A stretch of 47,321 nt of DNA from Deltaproteobacteria bacterium. Lineage in GTDB: Bacteria; Desulfobacterota; Binatia; Binatales; Binataceae. Numbering within the stretch: the first letter of the stretch is position 1; every line of letters starts with the position of its first letter. The stretch covers positions 77,152 through 124,472 of the forward strand of contig JAJXZF010000017.1 in NCBI GenBank assembly GCA_021780225.1. Direction: 5' to 3'. The position numbers were made by a program, and so were the translations under genes. Under the pieces are notes generated by a model that had not been told where the DNA came from, ran no database searches, and saw only the letters and a program-made list of their open reading frames with translations. Below, one piece after another: positions 5,431 through 7,013 of this stretch.

Positions 5431-5748
5431 TCAGCGACTCTTCGCCGCAGATTCATTCGGAAAGCGATAGATCAACTCATTCTGGTGAGTGTACCCGAGT
5501 TCGTTACGAATCAGTCGTTCCACGTATGCGTTATCGTTCTTCAGCCGATCAATCTGGCTGTTCATCCGGTTTTCTTCGGCTTGCAAATGATCGCGGCGCG
5601 TCTCGAGGTCGCGGCGATGACGGCGCAGATTGGCGAGATCGCGAGGGCCCATCGTTCCACCGAGCAGGCCCGACAACAGAACCGCCAGGATCAAGCCGAG
5701 AATTAGGCTCAGCCCTTGTCGGCGGAGTAAGACGCTTAACTTCGCCAT
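5431..5748 (-). CDS. ftsB: FtsB/DivIC-family septum formation initiator
   Basis: A 105-residue bitopic protein: a short cytoplasmic basic segment, one transmembrane helix (roughly residues 12-32, LILGLILAVLLSGLLG), then a heptad-rich coiled coil (about 40-75, with regular leucine/arginine/asparagine spacing such as LETRRDHLQAEENRMNSQID) and a short IRNELGYT-type tail. This is the layout of FtsB/DivIC, which pairs with FtsL and FtsQ in the division complex. The RNELGY motif is typical. Two ATGs occur (5751 and 5748). The second is preferred because the -10 box of the only evident promoter ends four bases before 5751, so a transcript could hardly include it with any leader. It converges with the CoA-transferase gene, 45 bases from its stop. 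Confidence 0.85.
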   Translation of the reverse strand: MAKLSVLLRRQGLSLILGLILAVLLSGLLGGTMGPRDLANLRRHRRDLETRRDHLQAEENRMNSQIDRLKNDNAYVERLIRNELGYTHQNELIYRFPNESAAKSR

Positions 5749-5755
5749 CATTTTG

Positions 5756-5785
5756 ATTGTAGAGATAGATTCTTTCGCAAATCAA
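5756..5785 (-). promoter_or_regulatory. Sigma-70 promoter for ftsB, predicting a leaderless mRNA
   Basis: Minus-strand TTGATT (5785-5780), an 18-base spacer and TACAAT (5761-5756). Transcription should start about seven bases after the -10, at or next to the ftsB ATGs (5751/5748), leaving no room for a ribosome site. Confidence 0.6.
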
Positions 5786-5886
5786 GATTTCTAATGTCTG
5801 AACATCATTTTAATTTCGGGAAAATCCATGAATCATGGTCGGAATCTGATTTTTAGAATTTGTTTATAAATATTTGTGAACGGCTC

Positions 5887-5915
5887 TTGATTCTTGCATA
5901 ACGCATTTCTATAAT
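5887..5915 (+). promoter_or_regulatory. Near-consensus sigma-70 promoter for the lysine-rich peptide transcript
   Basis: TTGATT (5887-5892), a 17-base spacer and a perfect TATAAT (5910-5915). The preceding bases 5861-5880 are A/T-rich and resemble an UP element. It is the best promoter match in the window. The expected transcription start is near 5922, giving a leader of about 67 bases before the ATG at 5989. Confidence 0.75.
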
Positions 5916-5988
5916 CGGCTCGTCGTCCGGTTGAGCGAATCGTTGTCATTAAGCCCGTCCGGCAGCAGCGACCGCATAGGAGGAACGT

Positions 5989-6099
5989 ATGCCAGCAACC
6001 AAAAAGCCCGGTACGAAGAAGACCACCAAATCCAAACCGAAGCTGAAGAGCACCATGGCGAAGAAAAAGGCTACCAAGAAGCCGACCAAGAAGAAGTAA
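5989..6099 (+). CDS. 36-residue lysine-rich basic peptide (histone H1 tail-like)
   Basis: An ATG with a full AGGAGG (5978-5983) five bases upstream opens a 36-codon frame ending in TAA at 6097-6099. Sixteen of 36 residues are lysine, mixed with threonine, proline, alanine and serine (for example MPATKKPGTKKTTKSK and AKKKATKKPTKKK), with no acidic or aromatic residue. Composition and the TKKP/AKKK repeats look like the tails of histone H1 or of bacterial H1-like proteins, so nucleic-acid or polyphosphate binding is a reasonable guess. The unit has its own near-consensus promoter and a strong terminator at 6203, implying an abundant monocistronic message. It is too short to recognise as a named family, and it could instead be a translated small regulatory RNA. 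Confidence 0.75.
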   Translation: MPATKKPGTKKTTKSKPKLKSTMAKKKATKKPTKKK

Positions 6100-6115
6100 C
6101 CAACCATATTATCGC

Positions 6116-6195
6116 CCTCCGCGCCTGAACGGCTTGCGGAGGCCTTCAACCATGCCGGGCTAGCTGCTGGACGAGCCGGGGCCTCAAGCCTCGTC
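6116..6195 (+). other. Two hairpins in the 3' untranslated region of the lysine-rich peptide message
   Basis: CCTCCGC (6116-6122) pairs with GCGGAGG (6136-6142), and GACGAG (6170-6175) pairs with CTCGTC (6190-6195). Both lie between the peptide stop and the terminator, so the roughly 310-base RNA would carry three hairpins after its coding part. Their function is unknown. Confidence 0.45.
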
Positions 6196-6202
6196 AGAAG
6201 GG

Positions 6203-6230
6203 AGAGCCCCCTTGAAAAAGGGGGCTCTTT
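6203..6230 (+). terminator. Rho-independent terminator with GAAA tetraloop
   Basis: AGAGCCCCCTT (6203-6213) pairs perfectly over 11 bp with AAGGGGGCTCT (6218-6228) across a GAAA loop, followed by TTCCTT. It closes the lysine-rich peptide transcription unit. Confidence 0.9.
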
Positions 6231-6575
6231 CCTTCCGAACGTTCGTGCAGAACGAGCCAATTTCCGCGCGCTTGCGGTATTGACTTGGGCCGCGTCAACA
6301 TTTCCAGTCCGTCGCTTTGTGCCGCGATCCCGCAGCCGTTGGCCGGAGCGCTTCCACTGTCATCTGTCATCGAATCGTCCGATCCGTGACGCTCAGACAG
6401 CGTGTCGAAGTCGCAACTTCATACGCGCGTTCCAATCTGCGCGATCGGTGTGCCCTCATCGATCATCACAATTTTACCTCAGACGTAATCGACGCGAGTC
6501 GTTGGAACAGGTACTGACTCTCCGAGACGGCGCGATCGGGCGGCGCCGCGCAACGCCGCAAACAAGGAGAAACAC
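6231..6575. other. Intergenic stretch with no supported gene
   Basis: About 345 bases between the terminator and the thioesterase gene. Open frames here lack ribosome sites and have arginine-rich shadow-like composition. No tRNA, repeat or convincing promoter was found, apart from the AAGGAG at 6564-6569 that belongs to the next gene. Confidence 0.6.
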
Positions 6576-7013
6576 ATGGATTCGATGAGCATCTTGCGCG
6601 AAAGCGCGTTGCCGTTCGCCAATTTTCTTGGACTCCGCCTGCTCTCGGCCACGCCGGACCGGATCGAGGCCGAACTCGAAGTGCGTGACGAGTTGTGCAC
6701 CCGCCCGGCGGTGATGCATGGCGGCGCGATGATGGCGTTTGCCGACTCGCTCGGCGGTTACGCCGCAATGTTGAACCTGCCCGAGGGGGCGGCGACGACC
6801 ACGCTCGAATCGAAGACGAATTTCTTCGCCGCCGCGCCGGTCGGAACCAAAGTAATCGCTGAATGCACGCCGCTGCATCGCGGCCGCCGCACGATGGTCT
6901 GGCAGACGCGGCTTACCTCGCCCGAAGGCCGGCTGCTCGCGCTCGTGACGCAGACCCAGATGGTGCTGGAGGGGCGCGCGCCGCGCCCGGCCGGAGAATC
7001 CGGAAAAGCGTGA
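6576..7013 (+). CDS. PaaI-family hotdog-fold thioesterase
   Basis: A 145-residue single hotdog domain that should hydrolyse an acyl-CoA (phenylacetyl-, hydroxybenzoyl- or similar) in the cytoplasm. The family signature VMHGGAMMAFADSLGG (residues 47-62) carries the HGG active-site turn and the aspartate on the central helix. A second conserved strand, TTTLESKTNFFAAAPVGT, follows at 69-86. The start is fixed by AAGGAG at 6564-6569, six bases before ATG 6576. It is followed 82 bases later by the ODP-type metallo-hydrolase on the same strand, with a possible promoter between them, so the two may not be an operon. Confidence 0.9.
   Translation: MDSMSILRESALPFANFLGLRLLSATPDRIEAELEVRDELCTRPAVMHGGAMMAFADSLGGYAAMLNLPEGAATTTLESKTNFFAAAPVGTKVIAECTPLHRGRRTMVWQTRLTSPEGRLLALVTQTQMVLEGRAPRPAGESGKA

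Follow-up and report, generated by a model that had tools for sequence, protein, structure and literature searches.

Does a 36-codon, lysine-rich reading frame with its own predicted promoter and terminator act through its peptide, its RNA or both? This question is raised by a locus in a 47,321-nt stretch of DNA (the window) from a 3.8-Mb genome whose class we take to be Binatia (Binatota). Comparison of related loci indicates that it is a conserved unit with selection on both the peptide and the RNA ends, and that it is larger than the preliminary description had outlined.

A compact predicted transcription unit beside ftsB

The unit is compact and lies on the forward strand between a divergent ftsB-like (DivIC) gene (5431-5751, reverse strand; PF04977, 2.3e-14), which anchors synteny, and a thioesterase-family gene (6576-7013, forward strand; PF03061). 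It begins with a promoter of the sigma-70 type at 5887-5915 (TTGATT at 5887-5892, 17-nt spacer, TATAAT at 5910-5915). Upstream, an AT-rich block at 5850-5872 may act like an UP element. Judging from the position of the -10 box, the predicted transcript would extend from 5922 to 6235 (about 314 nt). It carries the Shine-Dalgarno sequence AGGAGG (5978-5983), the 36-codon frame (5989-6099; ATG at 5989, stop codon at 6097-6099), a hairpin 3' of the stop codon (about 6114-6144), a short GC hairpin (about 6177-6193) and an intrinsic terminator with a long stem and a GAAA loop (6197-6235) that is conserved in the alignment of the host family; all are on the forward strand. The elements that the preliminary description had named, i.e. 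TATAAT with 17-base spacing and AT-rich upstream sequence, AGGAGG, the GAAA-loop terminator and two extra hairpins, were all located where it placed them, and its count of 16 lysines among 36 residues, with no aspartate or glutamate, is correct.

The same description considered these signals unusually strong for the window. In agreement with this, the promoter matches the consensus at 10 of 12 positions and ranks best among the eight promoter-like sites of the first 20 kb (4.0 +/- 1.7 sites of any quality when these 20 kb are shuffled). No second match to the promoter pattern and its spacer was found at up to two mismatches in the 3.8-Mb genome; the next best sites, two in number, each have three mismatches.

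Of 38 loci of the host family (Candidatus Binataceae), 28 were assigned TTGNNN-17-TATAAT by an automatic finder, which picked another upstream site in eight and a near-match in two; reading by eye added four loci (L011, L021, L057 and L083). Moreover, ATAAC occurs within the spacer (5898-5902 in the window) in 24 of the 28 automatically scored loci. By eye, a block similar to 5850-5872, TTTARAATTTSTTTATAAAT, lies about 13-15 nt 5' of the -35 box in most host-family loci. To our knowledge, sigma-70 promoters need neither the ATAAC motif nor the upstream block, and the two conserved elements are perhaps a regulator site.

For the predicted 314-nt RNA, the folding energy is -119.9 kcal/mol, compared with -96.1 +/- 5.5 for dinucleotide shuffles (z -4.3; none of 100 shuffles as low). 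In the fold of the RNA from the window, a small hairpin (about 5974-5993) has the start codon paired in its stem and part of AGGAGG in its loop; by eye, the letters of this hairpin recur in L001-L005 only. At gathering score, Rfam 15 gave no match for the window or for 20 related loci. Among Rfam candidates at E <= 10, Transposase-2 RNA reached 20.8 bits of the 42.7 needed and follows just the last hairpin and the terminator.

Purifying selection on the micropeptide frame

The frame is intact beside ftsB in 38 of the 41 host-family genomes seen. The three others are G011 (53% complete and covered by DNA search only), G070, where neither ftsB nor the peptide was found, and G027, where the frame is broken. 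In this last copy (L130), the only clearly broken one seen, the frame is interrupted and the pre-terminator hairpin apparently missing, and the promoter and both helix strands are kept; assembly error or decay may account for it. The neighbourhood is also stable: ftsB is present in all 26 host-family loci tested, L024 of G027 among them, and a gene that we label CoA-transferase-like in 21 of them.

For 34 of the 38 host-family coding sequences, pN/pS is 0.31. Variation is greatest at the third codon position (0.336, against 0.136 and 0.184 at the other two), and gaps within the frame come in threes, except for one-base alignment shifts at its edge in two rows. The ribosome site is, in addition, nearly invariant in the host-family alignment. 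The frame is thus under purifying selection at the protein level throughout the host family. The predicted peptides contain 41-53% lysine and no more than one acidic residue in all 34 cases examined. In a set of 24 sequences, one of them from another family, M1, S15, K16, K20, M23, K25, K26, K30 and K31 are invariant or nearly so.

A long-range helix closes the message

The preliminary description did not include a long-range helix in which the leader (5953-5966) pairs with the trailer (6163-6176) over 14 positions with one mismatch, both strands of the helix lying on the forward strand of the window. It encloses the ribosome site and the frame: AGGAGG starts 11 nt 3' of the leader strand, inside the closed loop, and is unpaired with the trailer strand. 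In other host-family loci the aligned helix likewise ends before the ribosome site; in L010, L013 and L039, complementarity can extend to the edge of that site.

The core of this helix was found unprompted by RNAalifold in a MAFFT alignment of 32 of the 38 host-family sequences, the six left out being L017 and L018 (contig ends), L049 (dropped) and L092-L094 (helices too different). In the 32 sequences, 89.6% of the helix cells are paired (83.6 +/- 0.6 in shuffles), and double-sided changes affect 8 of 14 pairs (shuffled 3.5) and 30 cells (shuffled 9.4). None of 500 shuffles, which ignore relatedness (the class-wide permutation given below handles it better), reached the native pairing, double-change counts or covariation score; further pair types were not above shuffles (316/500). 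When the strands were slid against each other, pairing fell to 22.6-53.8%. Under unconstrained folding, the best fold contains at least eight helix pairs in 25 of 32 sequences and the mean helix pair probability is at least 0.5 in 29 of 32; L027 and L029 have no helix pairs in their best fold. Selection on the helix, separate from that on the frame, is evident from this alignment. Double changes also occur in all four pairs of the hairpin behind the stop codon (alignment columns 252-255/274-277) and in one of three pairs of the short GC hairpin that immediately follows the closing helix (columns 319-321/337-339).

The preliminary description had opposed conservation of the peptide to that of the hairpins. 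In the relatives both are kept, and neither hairpins without a frame nor loss of both was the outcome. Its proposal of a dedicated, high-output gene is supported for the first part: the promoter and terminator, as well as the ribosome site and the frame, are conserved, and pN/pS is 0.31, as expected of a dedicated, strongly promoted micropeptide gene. High output would be expected from the promoter signals.

Recurrence of the helix across the class

In other families of the class, the leader-trailer helix recurs with a different sequence. For instance, it reads UUCUCGCCUGAGA/UCUCAGGCGAGAA in f9 (nearly identical in f6 and f7), GAGUUCGAGGCGGGG/CCCCGUCUCGAACUC in f13 and UUCGCCUGCGAGGGUG/CACCCUCACAGGCGAA in f4, and, by eye, GUUUCGUCG/CGACGAAAC in f10 and CUCGCCUGAG/CUCAGGCGAG in L129; within the host family, genus g16 has GCGACGCCAGCGCA/UGCGCUAGCGUCGC. 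For 19 class representatives of our own choice (three late-added class loci stand outside this test), leader-trailer complementarity averaged 28.8 for native pairs against 20.9 for mismatched ones (0 of 20,000 permutations). The native pairing came first in its row in 10 of the 19. Lower ranks were obtained for f1_L021 (9), f5_L198 (7), f7_L190 (6) and f6_L116 (4), in f6 and f7 partly because these families and f9 have a common helix sequence, and in the f15 representative the helix was not found (rank 17).

Taken singly, 27 of 48 loci had an ungapped complementarity reached by at most 5 of 100 shuffles, the best run being another pairing than the closing helix in three of the 27 (L022, L117 and L129). 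The weakest were L057 (96/100), L014 (94/100), L090 (86/100), L029 (73/100) and L021 (52/100); many helices have a bulge, which partly explains why single loci are often non-significant. In a second single-locus test, 15 of 29 loci were at this level (at most 5 of 100 shuffles), the terminator finder having shortened the 3' regions of L093, L096, L097 and L129; this hid the helices of the first three, all of which appear in the 48-locus test. In f10 and f16, the scored pairing varies with the stretch supplied. RNAduplex gave a native mean of -51.6 over 48 loci, modestly below the swap mean of -48.0, and in many loci the native value did not beat the shuffles, for example in L016 (64/100), L022 (60/100), L029 (58/100) and L092 (79/100). 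Since the terminator may pair in such duplexes, RNAduplex with shuffles is a poor statistic, and it was replaced by ungapped complementarity.

Outside the helix, the untranslated sequence diverges widely between families, as read by eye. All four f9 loci (L028, L095, L096 and L097) have GCTAGGCACGTA in their 3' trailer, upstream of the closing helix. Leaders of f6, f7 and f9 (L116, L117, L126 and L028) start with a GUGG/UGG-rich stretch followed by the helix; this stretch is possibly a G-rich structure or a protein site.

Lysine-rich frames across the class

Upstream of ftsB and at most about 4 kb from it, 29 of 42 class genomes outside the host family carry a lysine-rich frame together with a ribosome site. 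By family, these are f4 (5/5), f5 (2/3), f6 (3/3), f7 (4/4), f8 (1/1), f9 (4/4), f10 (2/2), f11 (3/3), f13 (1/3), f14 (2/2), f15 (1/1) and f16 (1/1); the gene was not found near ftsB in f2 (0/7) and f12 (0/3). The 13 genomes without the frame were each read at least 4.1 kb deep. The distance to ftsB ranges from about 0.3 kb (f6 and f9) to about 4 kb (G077 of f11, and f14), which makes it less certain that the far frames represent this gene. By eye, a frame with an enolase-like N-terminus adjoins ftsB, before the lysine-rich gene, in seven of the eight loci displayed. Frames have 24-120 codons outside the host family, and with the host family included, the range is 21 (genus g16) to 120 (f16). 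KKAT/KKAG-like repeats make up the long frames, and the longer relatives in f4, f10, f15 and f16 have 68-120 residues.

As controls, 30 loci with a DivIC domain from other classes of the phylum were read up to 1.5 kb to either side. A comparable frame was absent, and the two weak lysine-rich ones present contain acidic residues. Since 1.5 kb is shallower than the distances in half of the class, 20 of these loci were re-read 4.2 kb deep. None of the 20 was positive by a strict composition test (one locus has two weak frames), compared with 15 of 20 class loci.

A proposed histone-tail-like peptide from an end-to-end-paired mRNA

The explanation that we favour, with a probability of roughly 0.55, is that of a stable, end-to-end-paired mRNA yielding much of a disordered, H1-tail-like polycation that probably binds nucleic acid. 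It builds on the selection seen on the frame and on the helix, and adds high expression, nucleic-acid binding and message stabilisation, which we infer. The one-gene transcription unit would supply, in large quantity, a peptide that is short, disordered and polycationic. Its role would resemble that of the lysine-rich tails of histone H1 or bacterial H1-like proteins, and it would bind nucleic acid or another polyanion, e.g. polyphosphate. The 5' leader would pair with the 3' trailer just before the final hairpin and terminator, leaving the ribosome site and the frame in a closed loop. Because the ribosome site lies outside the helix, the helix can persist during translation. The likely gain would be a long-lived and efficiently translated message. 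With its ends paired and a hairpin and terminator behind, such a message should resist exonucleases and 5'-end-dependent cleavage.

The peptide of the window has no match in Pfam, NCBIfam or the PDB sequences, and seven of its relatives have none in Pfam at E <= 10. Since no family library recognises it, the term H1-tail-like rests on composition. Judged by this composition, the peptide should be disordered and bind polyanions, as H1 tails or the lysine-rich elements of Hc2 (PMC2848022) do. The chromatin- or RNA-binding role suggested in the preliminary description fits this composition. HU-family proteins are encoded in all 59 phylum genomes examined; therefore, the peptide would add to the usual nucleoid proteins and not replace them. 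H1-like proteins of the Chlamydia Hc2/HctB and Bordetella type (PMC2848022) and AlgP (PMC9239181) are lysine-rich, built of repeats and variable in length. Our peptide resembles Hc1, Hc2 and AlgP in being rich in lysine and nearly devoid of acidic residues, and the longer relatives (f4, f10, f15 and f16) also resemble them in their lysine-rich repeats and variable length. However, the peptide of the window has 36 residues without regular repeat and without Pfam or NCBIfam match.

The pairing also has a partial precedent. In the icaR mRNA of Staphylococcus aureus, a motif in the 3' untranslated region is reported to pair with the Shine-Dalgarno region, which hinders initiation and forms an RNase III substrate (PMC3868564). 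In both cases the leader and the trailer of one bacterial mRNA pair together, but the icaR pairing, as described there, covers the ribosome site, whereas the helix of the window ends 11 nt before AGGAGG and encloses a 36-codon frame. It was the only comparable bacterial case among the papers retrieved. Here, many families of one class have retained an end-to-end helix under selection; its sequence changes completely and the ribosome site stays free. The locus is therefore a natural test of end-to-end pairing in bacterial mRNA. Furthermore, the data suggest that this uncultured lineage has a family of tiny histone-tail-like proteins. It was missed by the profile libraries searched, probably owing to the shortness and low complexity of the frames. 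The unit is kin of known kinds, small-protein mRNAs with 5'-3' pairing and H1-tail-like polycations, and is not assigned to any named family. No such gene appears among the titles listed of papers naming Binatota.

Alternative explanations

The strongest rival, in our opinion possible although improbable, is a dual-function RNA, the closed RNA also acting in trans as a scaffold, a sponge or a ribonucleoprotein, perhaps with its own peptide. The RNA structure is selected separately from the frame, and with its leader, post-stop hairpin, closing helix, second hairpin and terminator, the RNA has more structure than a plain mRNA would require; at the same time, the conserved small frame and ribosome site, with a pN/pS of 0.31, predict translation. 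However, the wide divergence between families of the untranslated sequence outside the helix (by eye) and the lack of any Rfam match for the window and 20 related loci argue against a trans-acting RNA. RNAIII/hld and the hok mRNA are structured, contain a small frame, pair end to end and encode membrane-active peptides. The unit shares the small frame and the end-to-end pairing with them, but its RNA has no Rfam relation. VcdRP is a dual-function RNA with a 29-residue protein (PMC8672173); it is similar in its small-RNA-sized transcript and tiny conserved frame and different in its unrelated peptide. A bolder version, which we consider somewhat less probable still, is a class-wide ribonucleoprotein made from one gene, in which an abundant closed RNA and its own peptide would act jointly, e.g. 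in the nucleoid, the message being also a structural RNA.

An accessory ribosomal or ribosome-bound small protein, instead of a chromatin protein, is a doubtful proposal. Tiny basic proteins occur in some ribosomes, and a very small, very basic product with at most one acidic residue and a strong promoter would suit such a role. However, no sequence match was found among PDB chains, and the length, which varies from 21 to 120 codons across the class through lysine-rich repeats, is unlike that of a docked ribosomal protein.

We regard as very unlikely a unit of the type I toxin kind, in which end-to-end pairing would silence the mRNA of a harmful peptide until processing. The hok mRNA is kept inactive in this manner until it is processed, and the general plan, in which the ends of a message with a small frame pair with each other, is the same. 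However, the peptide of the unit is hydrophilic (16 lysines among 36 residues) and, on inspection, has no membrane-spanning or hydrophobic stretch, and its ribosome site is not in the helix. Moreover, the promoter scan found no minus-strand promoter-like site over the unit, which has a single match in its genome, ftsB as neighbour across the host family and no copy on plasmids.

That the RNA alone matters and the frame is incidental, for instance in a derived 6S RNA, is hardly credible. The RNA is long and structured, and the Rfam 6S model finds a match in one of 20 genomes (G035) and in none of 12 host-family genomes, the genome of the window included. However, the protein-level selection (pN/pS 0.31) and the conserved ribosome site speak for the frame. 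The 6S RNA of G035, the only one found, lies by eye between zapA-like and 5-formyl-THF cyclo-ligase-like frames, at another locus than the unit. The unit itself had no match to 6S RNA (RF00013) even at E <= 10. The stretch behind the zapA-like gene in the genome of the window (G000) gave no Rfam match; the 6S gap in the host family may reflect a limit of the model. Searches for tmRNA (RF00023 and ARAGORN) found none in the window, and that of the genome sits on another contig.

The least probable reading, which can practically be set aside, is a small mobile element whose ends are the inverted repeat: such a repeat does flank a short frame, but the unit has one match in its own genome at E <= 0.01 and none on plasmids, its neighbours are constant across the host family, and the repeat sits between promoter and terminator.

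Carriers of the unit

At E <= 0.01, the unit segment is matched in 39 of 57 genomes (own genome included, with its single match), some weak and distant matches among them reflecting lysine-codon similarity only. A scan of a contig collection with a codon pattern specific to the host family matched 13 contigs, all of them metagenome assemblies. On the reverse strand at 5756-5785, a promoter-like TTGATT-18-TACAAT stops just a few bases short of the start codon of ftsB (5751); ftsB may therefore have almost no leader or may start further in.
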